41,572 nt of DNA from a virus. Under the pieces are notes generated by a model. It searched no databases. It was not told the origin of the DNA and was given only the letters and a program-made list of their open reading frames with translations. Positions 8,484-35,230 of this stretch are shown in pieces. Made by a program: the position numbers and the translations under genes. Location of the stretch: positions 1 through 41,572 of IMG/VR virus record IMGVR_UViG_3300032242_001495; one strand, written 5' to 3'. Positions within the stretch are counted from its first letter, which is position 1. The number at the start of each line of letters is the position of its first letter.

Positions 8484-10708
8484 TGGCAGGAATGGGAGAT
8501 TTTCTTCCGCCAGTTGTTTTTGAACTTCGTGCGGTAACGGGTCAGTTTCAAGCGAAAATGGCGGAAGCCAAGGGCGAATTAACTGCTCTTGAAGCGACTG
8601 GTGCATCTTCGGGTGCGCGTTTTGCTACTGCCCTGAAGTTCGGTCTAATTGGTGGCGCGGTTGCTCTCGGTGCTATTTCCGCTATTGCGGTCCACGAAGC
8701 CAACAAACTACAAGAAGCACAAACTCGCTTAAAAACCGCACTTGAAGCACAACATCGTCCAACCGAGCGCATTATGGGCGCGGTTGAAGCCCTTTCGGTC
8801 AATTATCGCAGTTTGGGTTTTGGGGCTGACGACGTTACTGACGCGTACGGTCGTTTGGAGATAGCGTTACAAGACCCGACTAAAGCGATGAAGTTGATGG
8901 GCGTCACTGCCGATTACGCACGATTCAAGCATATGGACCTTGCTTCGGCGGCTCGCATTATGGCTCGTGCTTCTCAAGGTTCAGCCCGTGCGTTTAAAGA
9001 ACTCGGTATCTCGATGGATACGAGCATTAAAGACCCGACTGCTCGCGCGAACAAGGCTTTTGCGGAACTAACTAAACGACTTGGTGGTCAGGCTCAGGCG
9101 TACACCAAGACGTTTGCTGGCACACTTCAAGTTCTGAAAACCAAACTACAGGCAGCATTCGAAACGCTTGGCACAAAGTTGCTACCCGCACTTCAAAGTT
9201 TTGGCGAATGGTTAAACAACGTTGTACTGCCTGCGTTACAAGGTTTCATCGACGGATTAACTGGAAAAAACGGCTTAGCCAAAGGGTTTAGCGACAGCGC
9301 AAGATACGCATTCAATTTCGGCAAAGTGATTATTGGCGTATTCAAAATCGCATGGCAGTTTAAGGATTTATTGCTTTTTATCGGCGGTCTGCTTGTCACA
9401 ATGTGGATTGGGTCAAAAATCTACGCTGGTATTCAGGCTATCGTTAGCGCACTGAAAATCGTGCGTGGAGCGTTTGTTGCAACCGAAGCAGCAGCCGACG
9501 CGGTGGTTGTTGCGGAAGCAGCAGCGACTGGCGGATTCTCACTTGTCGCTGCTGGTATTGCAGCGACCGCAGCGATTGCGCTTGTTGGCGGAATTGCTTA
9601 CGCTGTCACCAAGGGCATAGGGACGACTGACACTGGTGGCGACGGAAAAGTCAAAGTGCCAACTGGTTTGGGCGGTCTTCCTGCCGATTACAAACCTAAA
9701 CCCCCGCCAGACCTCAGTGGGGGTGGGGGTGATGGTAGTGGCGGAGACAAAAACACTCCGCGAACAAAGGCTGCTGACGCGTTAAAAGCGTTAAAACAAC
9801 AAATCGCTGACTACAAGAAAAACGTTCGCGACAACTTGACCGCTGGCTCTGACGTAGTCTCGTTACAACAAACTGCTCGCGCTCAGGCTGACGAACTTTA
9901 TCAAAAAATGCAGTCTGACGCCCGCGCGCGCGTATCCGCGTTAGGCGGTACAAGCGAACAGGCAGACGCAGTGGCGTCAAATATTAAAAAGCCAGTAGCC
10001 CAAAGCATCGTTTCCGCCATGAAGGGCAAAGTCAGCAAGTTAAAAACGTTCTACGCTTTGTTGCGTCGTCTCATGAAGAAGGGACTTCACAATTCGGTTT
10101 TACAACAGTTAATTGCAGCAGGTCCTGACGGCGGTATTAGCGCAGCGCAAGAAATCCTTGGTCTCGGCGTTGAAAAAATCAACTCGCAAGACTACCAAAT
10201 CGGAGCGTGGGCTGCTAAGATTTCAAATCTTGGCGCAAAACTTGAGTATGGTTCAGCGTTAAAAACCGCGACAGACAACGCTTTAGCCGAAGCCCGTTGG
10301 AATGCAACGCATATTGTTAAAGCGGTAAAGCAAGCATCAACCGATATTATCACTTCCACTGACCAAACCACTCAGGCAGCGAAAAAGCACGCCACTACTG
10401 CACACAACGACCACAAGCACCTAGCAACCAAGTCGGATTTCAGGTTTTACGAATGGAACAAACTAGGTAACATAGCGGAACAAAACGCAAAATCGGCGCG
10501 TTTGCTTCAGTGGATAAAAGACCACGCCAATCCTGTGACTCCAATCGTAACTCCAACTCCCACGCCAACCACATCACAGTCGTCTTTCACTATCAAGTTA
10601 AGCGTGGGCGGTAAAGAACTATCTACCGTGATACAAGACGCCATCGTACAGTACGAACGCCGTAATGGTAGCAACGGCACAAATCATCGGCATGGCGCAG
10701 TGGTATAA
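8483..10708 (+). CDS. Tape measure protein
   Basis: The largest helical tail protein here (741 residues), overlapping the chaperone stop by one base. It begins with the R-A-V-T-G-Q-F-Q-A-K-M-A-E-A helix typical of tape measures. It has hydrophobic segments near residues 50-70, about 295-320 and about 350-380, a Gly/Pro-rich linker (about 408-430), and long charged Lys/Ala/Gln helices. Tape measures set tail length and enter the host envelope. The length would fit a tail of roughly 110 nm by the usual 1.5 angstrom per helical residue, which is only a rule-of-thumb inference. No lytic transglycosylase or peptidase motif is seen. Confidence 0.88.
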   Translation: MAGMGDFLPPVVFELRAVTGQFQAKMAEAKGELTALEATGASSGARFATALKFGLIGGAVALGAISAIAVHEANKLQEAQTRLKTALEAQHRPTERIMGAVEALSVNYRSLGFGADDVTDAYGRLEIALQDPTKAMKLMGVTADYARFKHMDLASAARIMARASQGSARAFKELGISMDTSIKDPTARANKAFAELTKRLGGQAQAYTKTFAGTLQVLKTKLQAAFETLGTKLLPALQSFGEWLNNVVLPALQGFIDGLTGKNGLAKGFSDSARYAFNFGKVIIGVFKIAWQFKDLLLFIGGLLVTMWIGSKIYAGIQAIVSALKIVRGAFVATEAAADAVVVAEAAATGGFSLVAAGIAATAAIALVGGIAYAVTKGIGTTDTGGDGKVKVPTGLGGLPADYKPKPPPDLSGGGGDGSGGDKNTPRTKAADALKALKQQIADYKKNVRDNLTAGSDVVSLQQTARAQADELYQKMQSDARARVSALGGTSEQADAVASNIKKPVAQSIVSAMKGKVSKLKTFYALLRRLMKKGLHNSVLQQLIAAGPDGGISAAQEILGLGVEKINSQDYQIGAWAAKISNLGAKLEYGSALKTATDNALAEARWNATHIVKAVKQASTDIITSTDQTTQAAKKHATTAHNDHKHLATKSDFRFYEWNKLGNIAEQNAKSARLLQWIKDHANPVTPIVTPTPTPTTSQSSFTIKLSVGGKELSTVIQDAIVQYERRNGSNGTNHRHGAVV

Positions 10709-28302: not shown

Positions 28303-28470
28303 AAGCCTATGTGCCACAATTAGTGCCACAGGGGGGTTGAGACACACAGAACCCCGTCGTTTGGGGAAGAAGGACCTTGTGTCTCGGTGTCTCATATTTT
28401 GGAATAGAATTAATTACGTGTGCGCGCATGCGCGCCTAAACCTACTCGTTCTCTCGGAAGGGTGAGACAC
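28231..28470 (+). other. Iteron-like repeat cluster, candidate replication origin
   Basis: Within 240 bases the 7-mer GAGACAC or its complement GTGTCTC occurs six times: 28255-28261, 28289-28295, 28339-28345, 28379-28385, 28387-28393 and 28464-28470, plus a near copy at 28231. GTGCCAC or GTGGCAC occurs three more times (28243, 28311, 28323). An A/T-rich stretch follows (28394-28417), then the perfect palindrome GCGCGCATGCGCGC (28422-28435). The cluster lies between the primase and polymerase genes and partly in non-coding DNA, as many phage origins do. A regulatory operator array is the alternative. Confidence 0.6.
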
Positions 28471-30315
28471 ATGAAGATAGATAAACCAACCGAAGTGCTA
28501 CCAGATGTTACAGGACTGGTCGTCGCCGTGGATACTGAGACCAGCGGTCTACACGTTGATGATGGCGCGACCGTGTCAGTAGTTAGTGTGGCGTGGCGAG
28601 AAGAAGGCACACAGCCACGACTAGAAGCAGGCATTGTCGGATTTGCGTTCCCGTTCGACCAAGGACGCTTCGCTGAAAAGACAGGCACAACCGCCAGCCC
28701 GTTCGACGAGGACATCAACCTCGACCGAGACGAGTGGGCGCACCTGATGTTCTGGCTCAGTAAGCAACAGTTAGTGTTCCACAATGCCAAGTTCGACCTG
28801 CACATGCTAGCCGAAGGCACGCGTGAATGGGGTGGCGTGGACCTAGTGGCACAGACCATCTGGGACACCCAAATCACACATCAACTGTTCGAACCGCTGT
28901 TGACCAGTGGACTCAAACCGACCTGCGCACGACTGTTCGGCGAACACGTGGCGCAAGAGCAACACGACGTCCAAACCGCGCTACGCAAGCAGGGTACAGG
29001 GCTGACCAAACGGTACGACCTATTGGACTGGTCAGTTGTCGGACCGTACGCAACACAAGACGCGATGCTGACCTACCGCCTAGCCGAATGGCAGTGGCGC
29101 AGACTTGAGACCGACGACCAGCACCTAGCCGTACTAGCGGACCGCGAAGTCGAACTAATGAAGGTCCTATACAAAATGGAAAAGCGCGGTATCGGATTCG
29201 ACGCCAAGCGAGCCGAAAAATCGGCGGACATCTTGCGCGCGCTCAAGGTCGAACTCGAAAACGAATTGCCGTTCAAGCCGACCATTCCAGCGGCTAAAGC
29301 CTACTATTATGGCGAACTGGGTCTGATACCGAGCAAAGTCGGCGCAAGCGGGTCACCAAGCCTAGACAATGAGACCGTGACCAAACTAGCCAAGAAGGAC
29401 GTGCCACACGCGAAAACGTACCTACGCTGGACTGAAGTGAAAAGCGCGCTAGAGAAATGGTACGGCAACTGGGGCAAACTGGTTGGACAAGATGGGCGAC
29501 TACGCACGAACTTCAGGCAGACCAAAGTAGTTAGTGGTCGGTTGAGTGTAGAGCGTGTGCAGTTGCAGGCGATTCCGCACGACTACCAACTGAAACAACT
29601 GTTCGGCGATGGAGTTGAAGGCGTGCGTGCGTTCTTCCAACCGAAAGGCAACCACCAGTTGTGGGAGATTGATATTAGCCAAGCCGAGATTCGCGTAGCC
29701 ACAGCGGTGTCTAACTGCGTGCCAATGCGCGAGCGATTAATGCGTGGCGAGGACGCACACGACGCGACCACAATGTTGGTATTTGGCATTACTAAAGACA
29801 GCCCTGATTGGGAGCAGTACCGCTCAGTCGGCAAGCGACTCACGTTTGGTATGTTGTACGGCGCGGGAGTGCGCACTACACGCGAGCAAATCAAAATGCA
29901 CACTGGCGTTGATGCGAGTGAGGGCGAAGTGCGCAAATGGGTGGACCAGTACCGCAGTGCGTTCCCCGAGTTCGTGCGCGCTGCAAAGTACGCAGACCAA
30001 GCAGTGCAGAAGCGTGGATACGTGAAACTGATTAGTGGACGCTTGCGTCACTGGGGTCTCGATGAGCAAAGTCATAAAGCGTTTAACGCAGTCATTCAAG
30101 GTGGAGTGGCGGAAGCGATGAAAATGGCGATGGTCGAAGTTGAACGTCAATTCCCTGATTTGTTGCTGTTACAGATTCATGATTCGATGGTGTTGGAAGT
30201 TCCAAACAAGAACGCGGAGCAAGTTGTCCAGCAAGTGCGTGATGTGCTAGTGGGCGTGTTTGAGTCGCTGTTCAACATCGAGTTCAAGGCGGACTATAAA
30301 CAATGGGCAAAATGA
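28471..30315 (+). CDS. Family A DNA polymerase with 3'-5' exonuclease (DpoZ candidate)
   Basis: The ATG at 28471 is chosen over the GTG at 28420 because GGAAGGG precedes it at good spacing. The 614-residue enzyme has an exonuclease start (V-A-V-D-T-E-T, D21 and E23), then the polymerase motifs: A, E-I-D-I-S-Q-A-E-I-R (D401); B, R451-x3-K455-x3-F459-x3-Y463; C, Q-I-H-D-S (H570, D571, S572). Most family members have H-D-E in motif C. No 5'-3' exonuclease domain is present, as usual in phages. Its presence with purZ and mazZ suggests the polymerase that works with dZTP (DpoZ in known Z phages). Its gene stop overlaps the next start. Confidence 0.85.
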   Translation: MKIDKPTEVLPDVTGLVVAVDTETSGLHVDDGATVSVVSVAWREEGTQPRLEAGIVGFAFPFDQGRFAEKTGTTASPFDEDINLDRDEWAHLMFWLSKQQLVFHNAKFDLHMLAEGTREWGGVDLVAQTIWDTQITHQLFEPLLTSGLKPTCARLFGEHVAQEQHDVQTALRKQGTGLTKRYDLLDWSVVGPYATQDAMLTYRLAEWQWRRLETDDQHLAVLADREVELMKVLYKMEKRGIGFDAKRAEKSADILRALKVELENELPFKPTIPAAKAYYYGELGLIPSKVGASGSPSLDNETVTKLAKKDVPHAKTYLRWTEVKSALEKWYGNWGKLVGQDGRLRTNFRQTKVVSGRLSVERVQLQAIPHDYQLKQLFGDGVEGVRAFFQPKGNHQLWEIDISQAEIRVATAVSNCVPMRERLMRGEDAHDATTMLVFGITKDSPDWEQYRSVGKRLTFGMLYGAGVRTTREQIKMHTGVDASEGEVRKWVDQYRSAFPEFVRAAKYADQAVQKRGYVKLISGRLRHWGLDEQSHKAFNAVIQGGVAEAMKMAMVEVERQFPDLLLLQIHDSMVLEVPNKNAEQVVQQVRDVLVGVFESLFNIEFKADYKQWAK

Positions 30316-30719
30316 AGAATCTGCACGTGGTCAGCATTGACCCTGCAGACAAGCACGTGGGCGTGTGTTTTTGGCTAGGTGGCTCAATCATCGAAGCAAA
30401 AACGATTACGCCGATTCAGATGTGCGAAATCATCGAAGTCACTCAATTCGACGCCGTTGTGATTGAAGAGTTCAGGCTCTACCCATGGATGGCGCAAAAC
30501 CTCGGATTTAATGATATGAAAACGAGCCAAATGATTGGCGCATTGAAGTTCTTGGCTAATCGCATCGGGTCGCCAGTGCATATGCAACCTGCGAGCATAA
30601 AGAAGCCAGCGTTCGCTCGCATGAAGGCAGAGGGATTTGAGATGCCTAAGGGAACGCAACACGCGAAAGACGCCGTCGCCCACGGGTTTTGGTGGCACTA
30701 CGGGTCGAAAACCCCGTAA
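30303..30719 (+). CDS. RuvC-like Holliday junction resolvase
   Basis: The RNase H-fold acidic motifs of RuvC-type nucleases are in order: V-S-I-D-P-A-D-K-H-V-G-V (Asp about 13), A-V-V-I-E-E-F (Glu about 55-56) and H-A-K-D-A-V-A-H-G (Asp about 123). The length (138) fits small phage resolvases. It probably cuts branched DNA before packaging. The ATG at 30312, overlapping the polymerase stop as ATGA, is an equally possible start three codons in. It ends in a terminator hairpin. Confidence 0.75.
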   Translation: MGKMKNLHVVSIDPADKHVGVCFWLGGSIIEAKTITPIQMCEIIEVTQFDAVVIEEFRLYPWMAQNLGFNDMKTSQMIGALKFLANRIGSPVHMQPASIKKPAFARMKAEGFEMPKGTQHAKDAVAHGFWWHYGSKTP

Positions 30720-30833: not shown

Positions 30834-31679
30834 ATGGCGAATCGTACAGACGCACACGCACCAGCAAGCGCACAGTTCGACCCGAACGCATACAACTGTT
30901 GGGGCGTATTCGACCTCAATGAAGAAATAAACCACCGCGCACGCGCTCAGATGGTAAACCAACTGGTGTGGCAGATGGGCTACAAAGTCGGCGCACACGG
31001 CTCAGGTCAGTGCGGACATTGTGGCGTTCGCATTCGCTACGCAGCACTAATGGTGCGCGATGATGTGCAGGAGTTCATCTGGGTTGGCGAGCAGTGCCTA
31101 GACAATCGCTTCTCAATCGAGACCGCATCAGACTTTCAGCGTCTACGCAAAGAAGCCAAGTTGCACGCAGAGCGCGCGACCAAGGCAGAACGCCTAGCAA
31201 CCTTCTTGAATGATTACCCAGAAATGGCGAAATTGGAAGGGTACGCTGGCGACCACGCAATCCTAGACGACCTACACCGCTCACTTAACGCACACGCTGT
31301 CTTGAGCGAGAAGCAGATTGCGCTTGCAGTTAAGTTGATGGCGCAGGCAGATGAGAACCGCATCAAGAAGGCAGACCGCGACGCAGACCGCGAAGCACTG
31401 CTAGCGTCAGGCGTACGCGCACCCGAAGGTCGCGTTGACGTAGTCGGCACTGTGGTCGGCTTGAAGTGGACCGAAGATTACGGCTACGGCTCAACGCTGA
31501 AAATGACAGTAAAGACCGACGCTGGCTGGCTAGTGTGGGTATCAGTGCCGTCCAGCATTGACCCAGAGCGTGGCGACCGCGTAGCGTTCACCGCGTCAGT
31601 CACACCAAGCGACACCGACGTGCTGTTCTCATTCGGCAAGCGTCCGACCAAAGCCAAGGTACTGGAGCAGGCATCATGA
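30834..31679 (+). CDS. Zinc / OB-like protein of unknown function
   Basis: The 281-residue protein has an N-terminal metal site (C-G-H-C-G-V-R then E-Q-C, about 60-90), a charged middle helix rich in Lys/Arg/Glu, and a C-terminal OB-like beta region (V-D-V-V-G-T-V-V-G-L-K-W, G-S-T-L-K-M-T-V-K-T, G-D-R-V-A-F-T-A-S-V). Proteins with this layout occur in many actinophages. Nucleic-acid binding is plausible from the fold pattern only. First gene of the P7 operon. Confidence 0.65.
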   Translation: MANRTDAHAPASAQFDPNAYNCWGVFDLNEEINHRARAQMVNQLVWQMGYKVGAHGSGQCGHCGVRIRYAALMVRDDVQEFIWVGEQCLDNRFSIETASDFQRLRKEAKLHAERATKAERLATFLNDYPEMAKLEGYAGDHAILDDLHRSLNAHAVLSEKQIALAVKLMAQADENRIKKADRDADREALLASGVRAPEGRVDVVGTVVGLKWTEDYGYGSTLKMTVKTDAGWLVWVSVPSSIDPERGDRVAFTASVTPSDTDVLFSFGKRPTKAKVLEQAS

Positions 31680-31834
31680 CCTGCCCAGACTGCCAGCACA
31701 CGGGCACGGATTTTGCGGAGCAACGGCACAAGCAAGCGTGCGGACTGACCTGCACATTCGTGGAACTGAACTGCCCGAAATGCCACTACATTGTGGACGC
31801 TCGCGTGGAGCACGTGAAAGGGTGTAAAGCGTGA
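31676..31834 (+). CDS. Small zinc-ribbon protein
   Basis: A 52-residue product coupled to both neighbours (ATGA at 31676, GTGA at 31831). It contains C-P-D-C-Q-H near its start, a central C-x3-C, and C-P-K-C-H followed by H-V-K-G-C near its end: seven Cys in 52 residues, so one or two zinc sites are likely. Function unknown; its position before the Mom-like gene makes a partner role possible. Confidence 0.6.
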   Translation: MTCPDCQHTGTDFAEQRHKQACGLTCTFVELNCPKCHYIVDARVEHVKGCKA

Positions 31835-32496
31835 GCAAACCCGAATACGCAGTCGCGCCGATTGACAGCAAGGACACCTACCCGTACCTGCTTGAAATCC
31901 ACTACGCCAAACGCATACCAGCAATCGCCTACGCATTCGGGCTGTTCTGTGATGGCGAACTGGTCGGCGTGTGCACATTCGGAAGCCCAGCATCGTCCAC
32001 GCTCCAGAAAGGGCTATGTGGACCAGCGCACGCGGACAAAGTACTTGAACTCAACAGGCTGTGCTTGAAGTACAACCGCCCGAACGAAGCGTCCATATTG
32101 GTGGGAGCGTCGCTCAAACGACTGCCCAAGCCGACCGTCGTAGTGAGTTTCGCTGACACGTCGCACAACCACACGGGCGTCGTATACCAAGCGACCAACT
32201 TCATCTACACGGGGCTGACGGTGGCGCGCACGGAATGGGCAGTGAAGGGCTTGGAGCACCTACACAGCCGAGCACTCGGACACATAGCCAAGAAACTCGA
32301 GGGAGACCAGAAAGACCTAGAGAAAATCAAAATGTTATACGGCGACCGCTTCTATTACCGATCCCGTCCGCGCAAGCACAGATACGTGGCGATAATGGCG
32401 TCAAAAACAGACAAGCGGACACTGCTAAAGGCACTCAAATACGAGCCACAGCCGTACCCAAATCAGAACTTGACTGACCTGCAAGTCGTAGGTTAG
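31831..32496 (+). CDS. Mom-like GNAT-fold DNA modification protein
   Basis: It starts with GTG at 31831. The 221-residue protein has the pattern of the Mom family (GNAT superfamily), which in phage Mu adds a methylcarbamoyl group to the exocyclic amine of DNA adenine: E-I-H-Y-A-K-R-I-P, F-G-L-F-C-D-G-E-L-V-G-V, F-G-S-P-A, E-L-N-R-L-C-L, N-E-A-S, V-V-V-S-F-A-D, Y-Q-A-T-N-F-I-Y-T-G and a basic R-P-R-K-H-R-Y segment near the end. Its gene ends 32 bases before purZ and contains the purZ promoter candidate. In a Z genome the target amine could be on 2-aminoadenine. Modification activity is inferred from family resemblance. Confidence 0.72.
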   Translation: MSKPEYAVAPIDSKDTYPYLLEIHYAKRIPAIAYAFGLFCDGELVGVCTFGSPASSTLQKGLCGPAHADKVLELNRLCLKYNRPNEASILVGASLKRLPKPTVVVSFADTSHNHTGVVYQATNFIYTGLTVARTEWAVKGLEHLHSRALGHIAKKLEGDQKDLEKIKMLYGDRFYYRSRPRKHRYVAIMASKTDKRTLLKALKYEPQPYPNQNLTDLQVVG

Positions 32497-32528: not shown

Positions 32529-33566
32529 ATGTCGAAAGTCAGTGTAGTAGTCGGAGGTCAATTCGGCTCAGAAGGTAAGGGCGCAGTCGCTGGACACCTA
32601 AGTCAGGGCGACGATTACAGCGTCATCGGAGTTCGCGTAGCAGGACCAAATGCTGGTCACACCGTCTACGGAAACGGACCAGACGGCGAGGACAACTACG
32701 CGTGGAAACTGCGCACTGTTCCAGTCACAGCCGTAACAAATCCGCTCAGTACGCTCATCATCGCAGCGGGGTCAGAGATTGACTTTGACGTCTTGCGAAG
32801 CGAAATAGACGCGCTGGACAAAGCGGGGTACAACGCAAGCGACCGACTGTTCATCGACCGCGAAGCAACCGTAATCGACGACAAGCACATCAGGATTGAG
32901 CAGACCAACACAATGCACGAACGCCTAGGCTCAACAGCCAAGGGAATCGGAGCAGCGAGAGCAGCGCGCATTATGCGGACCGCTGAACTGTACGGTGGCG
33001 ACGTCGATACAACCGAAATGCTGAACGACAGCCTGAACAGCCCGTTCAACCACATCATCATCGAAGGCACACAAGGCTACGGGCTAGGGTCGCACGCTGG
33101 CTACTACCCATTCTGCACCAGTAGCGACTGCCGAGCCATCGACTTCCTAGCCATGGCAGGAATAAGCCCGTGGCACGCAGAAGTGACCGAACTGGACGTT
33201 TGGGTAGTCGCACGCACTCACCCGATTCGCGTGGCAGGAAATAGCGGTCCTTTGCTCGGAGAGACCAATTGGGAGCAACTAGGGCTACCAGAGGAACGGA
33301 CAACCGTCACCAATAAAGTACGCCGAGTCGGAAAGTTCGACCCTGAACTGGTCGCCGAAGCGGTTCGTGCTAATGGTGGCGCACCTACGGCGCGACTCGC
33401 GCTGACCATGTTTGACTACGTGTTTCCGCATCTCGCGGGTGCTACAATTGTAACGCAAGAAGATGAAGAAGTCGTGTCTTACATTAAAACTATTCAGCAT
33501 ATGACAGGAGCAAGCGTCGCCCTAGTCGGAACAAGCCCGACCACCATGGCGGCTCTTAATTGGTAA
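32529..33566 (+). CDS. purZ: PurZ: N6-succino-2-amino-2'-deoxyadenylate synthase (PurA-like)
   Basis: A 345-residue adenylosuccinate synthetase-like enzyme, much shorter than bacterial PurA (about 430). The P-loop is G-G-Q-F-G-S-E-G-K-G with Ser14 where PurA has its catalytic Asp. As I recall, this Asp-to-Ser change marks PurZ, which joins dGMP and aspartate to make the precursor of 2-aminoadenine deoxynucleotide. Retained: N-A-G-H-T (His44), G-S-T-A-K-G (134-139), E-G-T-Q-G (179-183), Y-P-F-C-T-S-S-D (193-200), R-T-H-P-I-R-V (229-235) and R-R-V-G-K-F-D-P (265-272). It heads an overlapping operon with mazZ and dut. Plain PurA activity on IMP is the alternative, but the Ser14 substitution argues against it. 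Confidence 0.88.
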   Translation: MSKVSVVVGGQFGSEGKGAVAGHLSQGDDYSVIGVRVAGPNAGHTVYGNGPDGEDNYAWKLRTVPVTAVTNPLSTLIIAAGSEIDFDVLRSEIDALDKAGYNASDRLFIDREATVIDDKHIRIEQTNTMHERLGSTAKGIGAARAARIMRTAELYGGDVDTTEMLNDSLNSPFNHIIIEGTQGYGLGSHAGYYPFCTSSDCRAIDFLAMAGISPWHAEVTELDVWVVARTHPIRVAGNSGPLLGETNWEQLGLPEERTTVTNKVRRVGKFDPELVAEAVRANGGAPTARLALTMFDYVFPHLAGATIVTQEDEEVVSYIKTIQHMTGASVALVGTSPTTMAALNW

Positions 33567-33869: not shown

Positions 33870-34223
33870 ATGATGGAAGGCACAGAGAAAAAAACCGCAA
33901 GACAACTGCGACTCGACGAGTTCGCAGAATGGTGGATAGCAACTTCTGAAGAAGCACTCGACACGATGATGCCGAAAGTGCGAGAGTACGGAAGCACCGA
34001 CCTACAAATCGTAGGCGAAGCCATGATGAAGATGATGCCACAACTCGAAGGCAAAGTCACACCAGCAGAGTTGGGTATCGCGTTTTACCTGCTCGGCAAA
34101 GTCGGTCGTGTAATCGGCGGTTACGTTGACGGACACGCGCCAAGCGACGACACTTGGTACGACATTGAAGTGTACGCAAAGATGGCGCGACGTACGCGTG
34201 AGACAGGGGGCATGTTCCCATGA
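33870..34223 (+). CDS. mazZ: MazZ-like MazG-type nucleotide pyrophosphohydrolase
   Basis: The 117-residue helical protein has the K-V-R-E-Y-G-S-T-D-L stretch (36-45) that MazG-like proteins carry as K-x2-x-Y-G-x2-D-L, a helix with L-G-K-V-G-R-V-I-G-G (74-83) and D-D-T-W-Y-D-I-E-V-Y-A-K-M (93-105), the acidic metal-binding end. MazZ in known Z phages turns dGTP into dGMP, the PurZ substrate, and this gene shares the purZ operon. Start at 33870; a second ATG one codon in is possible. The stop overlaps the next start as ATGA. Family call is by motif and context; nucleotide preference is inferred. Confidence 0.78.
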   Translation: MMEGTEKKTARQLRLDEFAEWWIATSEEALDTMMPKVREYGSTDLQIVGEAMMKMMPQLEGKVTPAELGIAFYLLGKVGRVIGGYVDGHAPSDDTWYDIEVYAKMARRTRETGGMFP

Positions 34224-34630
34224 TGATTTACCTCGCAGGACCAATCGACAACGCAAATATGGCGTGCTTTGAGCAACGCCGACAAATCAAGGACACATTA
34301 AAAACGCTTGACCACGTTGTGTTCGACCCAGCAAGCGCGTGGACCGTGCCGATTAATGCTGAGTTAGACGGCAGATTGCAGGACCTAAACGAAAAAGTCG
34401 TTTTGGCGTGTGACATGGTTGTGGCGTTTTTAGTGCCGAACGTGCTGTCAATCGGCACAGTCATGGAAATCGTCTACGCACACGACATCGGCACGCCAGT
34501 CGTTGTTCATATGCCAGACATCAACCCGAGTTGGGCGTTAGCGTCGCTAGAATCAGTGGTCATTACGCACACTGATACTGAACTAATTGAAGCAGTGCAG
34601 GACGTGATACCGAGAAAAAAACTGTGGTGA
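34220..34630 (+). CDS. Nucleoside 2-deoxyribosyltransferase-like protein
   Basis: The 136-residue protein has the family start Y-L-A-G-P-I-D, a middle helix (E-K-V-V-L-A-C-D-M-V-V-A-F-L) and I-G-T-V-M-E-I-V-Y-A-H with Glu83 at the place of the catalytic Glu. The family breaks or exchanges N-glycosidic bonds of deoxynucleosides or deoxynucleotides (Rcl/DNPH1 acts on dNMPs). It is translationally coupled to mazZ, so it probably acts on the same nucleotide pool. A dAMP- or host-nucleotide-clearing role, in place of DatZ, is speculation. Overlaps the next start as GTGA. Confidence 0.72.
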   Translation: MMIYLAGPIDNANMACFEQRRQIKDTLKTLDHVVFDPASAWTVPINAELDGRLQDLNEKVVLACDMVVAFLVPNVLSIGTVMEIVYAHDIGTPVVVHMPDINPSWALASLESVVITHTDTELIEAVQDVIPRKKLW

Positions 34631-34710: not shown

Positions 34711-34817
34711 GAGAAGAAATCGAGATTTCGCTGTGTAAGCGACATCACTACAAGGGCGTAGCCCTAGCAATCAACTGCCATGAGTGCAGAGCAGAAGCAG
34801 ATGAGGACCAAGAATGA
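34707..34817 (+). CDS. Tiny Cys/His protein (36 aa)
   Basis: ATGA overlaps at both ends (34707 and 34814) place it firmly in the operon. It has C-K-R-H-H-Y and C-H-E-C, which could bind one zinc, and an acidic end. Function unknown. Confidence 0.5.
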   Translation: MREEIEISLCKRHHYKGVALAINCHECRAEADEDQE

Positions 34818-35230
34818 GTGAGATTCTGTACAAAGGCACAGCACCAACACGTGGCTACCACGACGACGCTGGATTCGACTTGTACGTAAATGGCGACTGG
34901 ACCATCAACCCGCAAGAGTTCGTAGACATCGACCTCAACTGTGCGGTGGCGTTTCCGACTGGCATGTGGGGCTTGCTCACTGGACGGTCGAGCACACTAC
35001 GCAAGCGAGGGCTTTTAGTGGCGCAGGGCGTGATTGACACAGGCTACACAGGACCGCTGTTCGCTGGCGTGTGGAATCTGACAAACGAACCCGTTGTTGT
35101 AACTCATGGAGACCGAATCGCACAGTTGATTCCAATGTACAACGTGGCGCAACTGACTAGTATGATTGAAGCGGTCGAGTTTCCCGAGACACAACGGGGT
35201 GGTAATGGATTCGGCTCAACAGGCACATAG
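34814..35230 (+). CDS. dut: dUTPase (trimeric)
   Basis: All five trimeric dUTPase motifs are present: D-A-G-F-D-L (18-23), G-R-S-S (57-60), G-V-I-D-T-G-Y-T-G (72-80), G-D-R-I-A-Q-L-I (99-106) and R-G-G-N-G-F-G-S-T-G (128-137). Length 138 is normal. It makes dUMP and keeps uracil out of DNA. It is the last nucleotide gene of the operon beginning at purZ. Confidence 0.95.
   Translation: MSEILYKGTAPTRGYHDDAGFDLYVNGDWTINPQEFVDIDLNCAVAFPTGMWGLLTGRSSTLRKRGLLVAQGVIDTGYTGPLFAGVWNLTNEPVVVTHGDRIAQLIPMYNVAQLTSMIEAVEFPETQRGGNGFGSTGT

Follow-up and report, generated by a model that had tools for sequence, protein, structure and literature searches.

A Mom-family gene beside purZ in a probable Z-DNA phage, and the predicted modification of 2-aminoadenine

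A member of the Mom family of DNA modification genes lies directly upstream of purZ in a phage whose DNA very probably contains 2-aminoadenine (Z). In phage Mu, Mom adds a carbamoylmethyl group to adenine; the mechanism was reportedly addressed by Karambelkar et al. 2020. In the phage described here the substrate is predicted to be Z, and a second modification layer on Z-DNA is our best working hypothesis. It draws on family membership, conserved residues, protein fold, the genes of the Z pathway, the order of the genes and the lack of mom in close relatives, all of which are matters of observation. Z-DNA is usually regarded as the final outcome of base replacement, one that already blocks adenine-reading nucleases. 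If the hypothesis is true, a single phage combines base replacement with a further layer of post-replicative hypermodification, and it must be asked whether Mom chemistry tolerates the 2-amino group. Neither a hypermodified Z nor the occurrence of Mom together with 2-aminoadenine and PurZ was found described in the open-licence PMC literature, and the paper on the PurZ0-type Z module makes no mention of Mom (PMC12884076).

The DNA analysed, referred to as the window, has 41,572 bases and is a whole IMG/VR record. It has no exact terminal repeat longer than 10 bases, so it may be a fragment. The features discussed are the following.

28420..30315, + strand: dpoZ-like family A DNA polymerase gene, 631 aa (NF038381 DpoZ, 332.5 bits, cut-off 350)
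31676..31834, + strand: zinc-ribbon ORF, 52 aa (matches to Pfam zinc-ribbon models below cut-off only)
31831..32496, + strand: mom, 221 aa, GTG start, predicted Mom-family GNAT-fold DNA modification enzyme
32529..33566, + strand: purZ, PurZ0 type, 345 aa (NF038379, 344.5 bits, cut-off 300)
33870..34223, + strand: helical protein, 117 aa (all-alpha model, pLDDT 87)
34220..34630, + strand: dmtZ candidate, nucleoside deoxyribosyltransferase family, 136 aa (PF05014, 36.5 bits, cut-off 28.8)
34814..35230, + strand: dutZ candidate, dUTPase family, 138 aa (PF00692, E 1.5e-25)

The Mom-family protein

A preliminary description of this DNA had proposed that the gene just upstream of purZ is Mom-like, and the HMM search bears this out. 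The ORF matches the Pfam Mom model PF25680 with 131 bits (E 5.8e-38, cut-off 27.1) over model positions 2-201 of 202, and PHROG 1384, 'Mom-like DNA modification protein', with an E value of 1.2e-54. No ordinary N-acetyltransferase family, the alternative that the description had named, appeared among the Pfam or NCBIfam matches; the sole NCBIfam match was to the XF1762 family and was sub-threshold (29.6 bits, cut-off 50). The closest in-frame stop on the 5' side is at 31825, and there are no alternative starts between it and the GTG. A tblastn search with the ORF returned 275 related phage records, each with less than 60% identity, including Escherichia phages Mu and D108. Identity between the window Mom and Mu Mom is 28%.

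The structure of the protein was modelled with AlphaFold2 from an alignment of 37 Moms, comprising that of the window, that of a second record with both PurZ and Mom (L182, see below) and 35 further viral contig sequences. The model has a mean pLDDT of 88.9 and a pTM of 0.79. In a Foldseek search of the PDB its top matches were both chains of 8bv8 (E 2.6e-11 and 4.8e-11), with TM scores by query length of 0.69 and 0.65, followed by other acetyltransferases at E 2e-5 or weaker. A sequence search of the PDB gave 8bv8 as the sole significant match, at 2e-7 with the window Mom alone and at 2e-69 with a profile including Mu. The title of this entry is 'phage Mu protein Mom inactive mutant S124A'. 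It reads NSEARAIS where Mu has NSESRAIS, and the column of the mutated serine is that of S88 in the window Mom. The same serine is S114 in the 231-aa annotation of Mu Mom; a longer Mu frame of 241 aa would explain the numbering 124.

Among the key residues of Mu Mom, the serine mutated in 8bv8 is thus conserved: S88 and 34 more positions are invariant across the 37 aligned Moms. The invariant residues present in the window protein include H24, Y25, R28, E73, N75, R76, S88, D109, N123 and F124. With Mu Mom the protein shares the family model, the fold, the mutated serine, the motifs HYxxR, ELNR and YQAxNF, and the other invariant residues. The genes differ in their setting, since mom of Mu belongs to a late operon at the end of the genome whereas that of the window is inside the purZ cluster, and the proteins would differ in substrate base, adenine in Mu and, as predicted, Z in the window. 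The clearest change specific to the window is F50, where the other 35 Moms and L182 have Tyr and Mu has Trp. A search for signs of adaptation of Mom to Z, as residues that the window shares with L182 and that are rare in other Moms, yielded one position in a non-conserved column. The window gene is a real, well-supported member of the Mom family, and a chance resemblance is excluded, as it is for purZ.

The Z cassette

The next gene after mom is purZ, which starts after 32 bases. Here too the preliminary description stands, in that purZ is adjacent to the Mom-like gene; its product scores above the family cut-off. The gene belongs to a complete-looking Z pathway of the PurZ0 type. The protein has the motif GSEGKG, in which Ser replaces the catalytic Asp of PurA (Asp13 position). 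It is 57% identical to the PurZ of Galactica, 54% to that of Hiyaa and 49% to those of Ghobes and Wayne, as against 29-34% for six phages of the phiVC8/S-2L type, and is therefore assigned to the PurZ0 type. A scan of the window for purZ by exact peptide patterns found nothing; the patterns were probably too narrow.

The PurZ0-type Z module has been described recently (PMC12884076). In the accessible part of that account, dutZ is present in 98 of 98 PurZ0 genomes, with dmtZ as well in 85, and the products of the two genes remove dATP and dAMP; Tyr6, Asp12, Pro57, Asn77, Glu103 and Trp124 are given as functional residues of DmtZ (PMC12884076). The dmtZ candidate of the window keeps all seven residues that match Y6, D12, P57, N77, G99, E103 and W124 of the Ghobes protein. 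The dutZ candidate is 54% identical to Zanella gp57 and 50% identical to Ghobes gp55 and to the C-terminal domain of Wayne, and the polymerase is nearest to those of Ghobes (34%) and Wayne (33%) among 11 compared. Ghobes (Gordonia), Wayne (Arthrobacter), Galactica (Streptomyces) and Zanella (Microbacterium) share with the window PurZ0, a DpoZ-like PolA and dutZ; dmtZ is a separate gene in Ghobes, as in the window, and is fused in Wayne and Galactica. All four differ from the window in being without Mom. The presence of this module, with purZ, a DpoZ-like polymerase, dmtZ with intact residues and dutZ, makes it very probable that the genome is a Z genome.

The small helical protein encoded at 33870-34223 is an unnamed but constant component of the PurZ0 Z cassette. 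Homologues are present at all 80 PurZ0 loci collected; among six named PurZ0 phages that were searched, five have one and Wayne does not. A fold search against the PDB gave no significant match. An assignment as a MazG-like pyrophosphohydrolase gained no significant support from it, the S-2L MazG-like enzyme coming at rank 14 (E 7), and by Pfam the protein is not DUF5664. Another ORF, at 30303-30719 (138 aa), has PHROG matches that include a weak one to Holliday junction resolvase, and homologous ORFs in 29 of the 80 PurZ0 loci. Scans for sigma-70 promoters and terminators gave no excess over shuffled sequences.

Mom and PurZ in other phages

The pairing of Mom with PurZ is rare. None of 12 named PurZ phages matched PF25680, in a search that does match Mu and Roseobacter phage CRP-902, and tblastn found no Mom at any of the 80 PurZ0 loci. 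Four alignment scans, taking the best 80 of each, yielded 280 PurZ loci (240 contigs, 228 distinct purZ cores), one of which, L182, had Mom by HMM. Whole PurZ contigs, chosen as longer than the locus sequence, were without Mom above the cut-off in three sets (0 of 43, 0 of 50 and 0 of 50); one sub-threshold match of 11 bits occurred in the set of 43. In the reverse direction, PurZ was absent from 149 Mom loci (80 plus 69 new, the best of 509 and 589 relatives) and from 18 whole Mom contigs. Among the matches listed, the Moms closest to that of the window are 58-60% identical and lie in contigs without detectable PurZ. Members of its Mom branch occur near primase genes in 6 of 80 loci, again without detected PurZ. 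A conserved linkage of the two genes was sought in named phages, PurZ loci and Mom loci, and was not found. Uniqueness of the pair is not proven, as the collections may omit records very near the window.

L182 (IMGVR_UViG_3300033696_000004, 119,931 bases) is the only other record found with both genes. Its PurZ is 58% identical to that of phiVC8, hence of the other PurZ type, and Mom is located about 8 kb downstream. The phage is T4-like, with a gp5-type lysozyme, a family B polymerase and an anaerobic ribonucleotide reductase; no PolA was found in it and no match to DatZ or MazZ, one DatZ search having been run without a positive control. On these grounds L182 was not accepted as a further, independent case of Mom in a Z phage. 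It has PurZ outside a recognisable Z cassette, its Z status is doubtful, and the window is the sole convincing Z phage of the two. A quick tree was built from 75 Moms, with 9 of 83 Mom ORFs excluded because of their length. In it the window Mom pairs with that of L003 (SH-aLRT 85) and the L182 Mom falls in another part, which indicates that Mom met PurZ at least twice. At 8929-10987 of L182 the phiVC8-type PurZ gene is located beside an ORF that, judged by eye from a cysteine motif, resembles radical-SAM proteins.

The window differs from its two nearest relatives in the space before purZ. The nearest, L096 (IMGVR 3300028392_000269), has a polymerase 83% and a primase 87% identical to those of the window; in L097 (IMGVR 3300032285_001914) the polymerase is 77% and TerL 83% identical. 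Both have the same cassette of purZ, a small ORF, the homologue of 33870-34223, dmtZ and dutZ, and both are without Mom. In L096 a zinc-ribbon ORF alone is found directly before purZ, homologous to the zinc-ribbon ORF of the window (43%, E 5e-9). In L097 this place is taken by an N6/N4 DNA methyltransferase gene at 8789-9709 (PF01555, E 6e-56; type II methyltransferase by PADLOC), followed by a small ORF. On a Z genome this enzyme could yield either N6-methyl-Z or N4-methyl-C. Three genomes thus have three contents in this space, two of which are DNA modification genes, and this suggests that Z phages of this group, represented by three contigs only, gain a second modification by gene exchange. 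Since the two nearest relatives lack Mom and have other contents before purZ, Mom appears to be an addition to a Z phage that can be exchanged for other genes. A DNA methyltransferase beside purZ is not a general rule, and was ruled out as such across 74 PurZ0 loci: a methyltransferase motif within 3.5 kb upstream of purZ was present in three ORFs and confirmed by Pfam in L097 alone. These 74 of the 80 loci include L096 and L097; six with purZ near a contig edge were left out.

The stop codon of the zinc-ribbon ORF overlaps the GTG start of mom by 4 bases (GTGA), and mom is therefore placed exactly between this ORF and purZ. In Mu a small zinc-binding ORF, com, is likewise found directly 5' of mom, but the similarity of the window ORF to Com is not significant (a match of 20 aa, with E 0.017 when three sequences were searched). 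It resembles Com in size and place; we nonetheless do not propose it as a Com homologue, given this lack of significance and the homologue in L096, which has no mom. Translational control of the Com type is a Mu feature and is not common to all Mom family members; of 72 regions upstream of Moms, 10 pass a loose cysteine filter, Mu among them. At L109 (9650-9979) and related loci a small ORF, in the representative 109 aa with several cysteines, is found 21-33 bases before purZ; such ORFs form a cluster of 36 among the 74 PurZ0 loci. Small putative zinc proteins thus recur directly before purZ0, in the window, in L096 and in the L109 cluster.

A doubly modified base and its alternatives

In the proposed explanation the phage would make Z-DNA with PurZ0, a DpoZ-type polymerase, DmtZ and DutZ, and would have acquired mom between the zinc-ribbon gene and purZ. 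Mom would then modify Z in replicated DNA, most likely by carbamoylmethylation of the exposed N6 amine, the reaction of Mu Mom on adenine, and the product would be N6-carbamoylmethyl-2-aminoadenine at a subset of sites. The doubly modified base would serve as a second layer of protection from host nucleases. We infer the presence of Z in the genome, an active Mom, N6 of Z as its target and an anti-restriction benefit. Taken as a whole, the explanation has in our judgement an even chance of being correct. The more specific statement, that N6-carbamoylmethyl-2-aminoadenine is in the phage DNA and that second-layer modification genes are exchanged in the space before purZ in this phage group, falls a little short of that.

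A doubly modified base made by the action of Mom on Z is plausible. The target of Mom in Mu is given as N6 of adenine in the accessible text of two papers (PMC7824862, PMC8281217), and since the N6 amine is present in Z, its carbamoylmethylation is chemically plausible. N6 modification of Z also has a precedent, because Escherichia coli methyltransferases act on 2-aminoadenine in vitro, at an efficiency at least tenfold lower, and 6-methyl-2-aminoadenine confers endonuclease resistance (PMC8342488). The methyltransferase gene of L097 also speaks for the explanation, as a different modification gene exchanged into the space before purZ. By analogy with these enzymes, the 2-amino group may lower the activity of Mom. 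According to the same source, full replacement of adenine by Z already largely blocks adenine-reading restriction enzymes (PMC8342488), which leaves no obvious gain from Mom on Z-DNA. Also against the explanation are the near absence of Mom from other PurZ phages, without conserved linkage, the DpoZ match just under the cut-off, and the lack of a convincing Z-adaptive change of residue.

Some of these observations would suit a mom that is an acquired passenger, active on adenine-containing DNA in its source phages, with little or no activity on Z-DNA and intact because it is young. The closest Moms come from contigs without detectable PurZ, PurZ was found at none of the 149 Mom loci, mom is missing from both L096 and L097, and the window protein has F50 where the other Moms have an invariant Tyr, apart from the Trp of Mu. 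A passenger would sit less well with an intact frame of 221 aa in which all invariant residues are kept, with the overlap between mom and the zinc-ribbon ORF within the purZ cluster, and with a next relative just 60% identical, so that it was not freshly copied from any sampled mom. We regard it as rather unlikely. It is unlikely, too, that Z replacement is incomplete and that Mom modifies leftover adenines, so that Z and Mom-modified adenine would occur side by side with no doubly modified base. The polymerase score just under the DpoZ cut-off and the action of Mom on adenine in Mu would agree with this, but dmtZ and dutZ, whose products reportedly remove dATP and dAMP in the accessible account (PMC12884076), are both present with conserved residues.

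The target of Mom could also be host DNA or another nucleic acid; the enzyme might, for example, mark or damage adenine-containing host DNA and spare Z-DNA. The position of mom in a replication and nucleotide cluster beside purZ, unlike the late genome end of Mu, would fit such a role, as the enzyme's synthesis may fall in a period when host DNA persists. The role stated for Mu Mom is protection of phage DNA (PMC6483171, from the text accessible), and Moms of the same branch are near primase genes at loci without detected PurZ, which argues against it, and we consider it improbable. It is very improbable that this is no Z phage at all and that mom acts on ordinary adenine: PurZ scores above its cut-off with Ser at the Asp13 position, and dmtZ, dutZ and the DpoZ-like polymerase are of the PurZ0 type found in the named PurZ0 phages.
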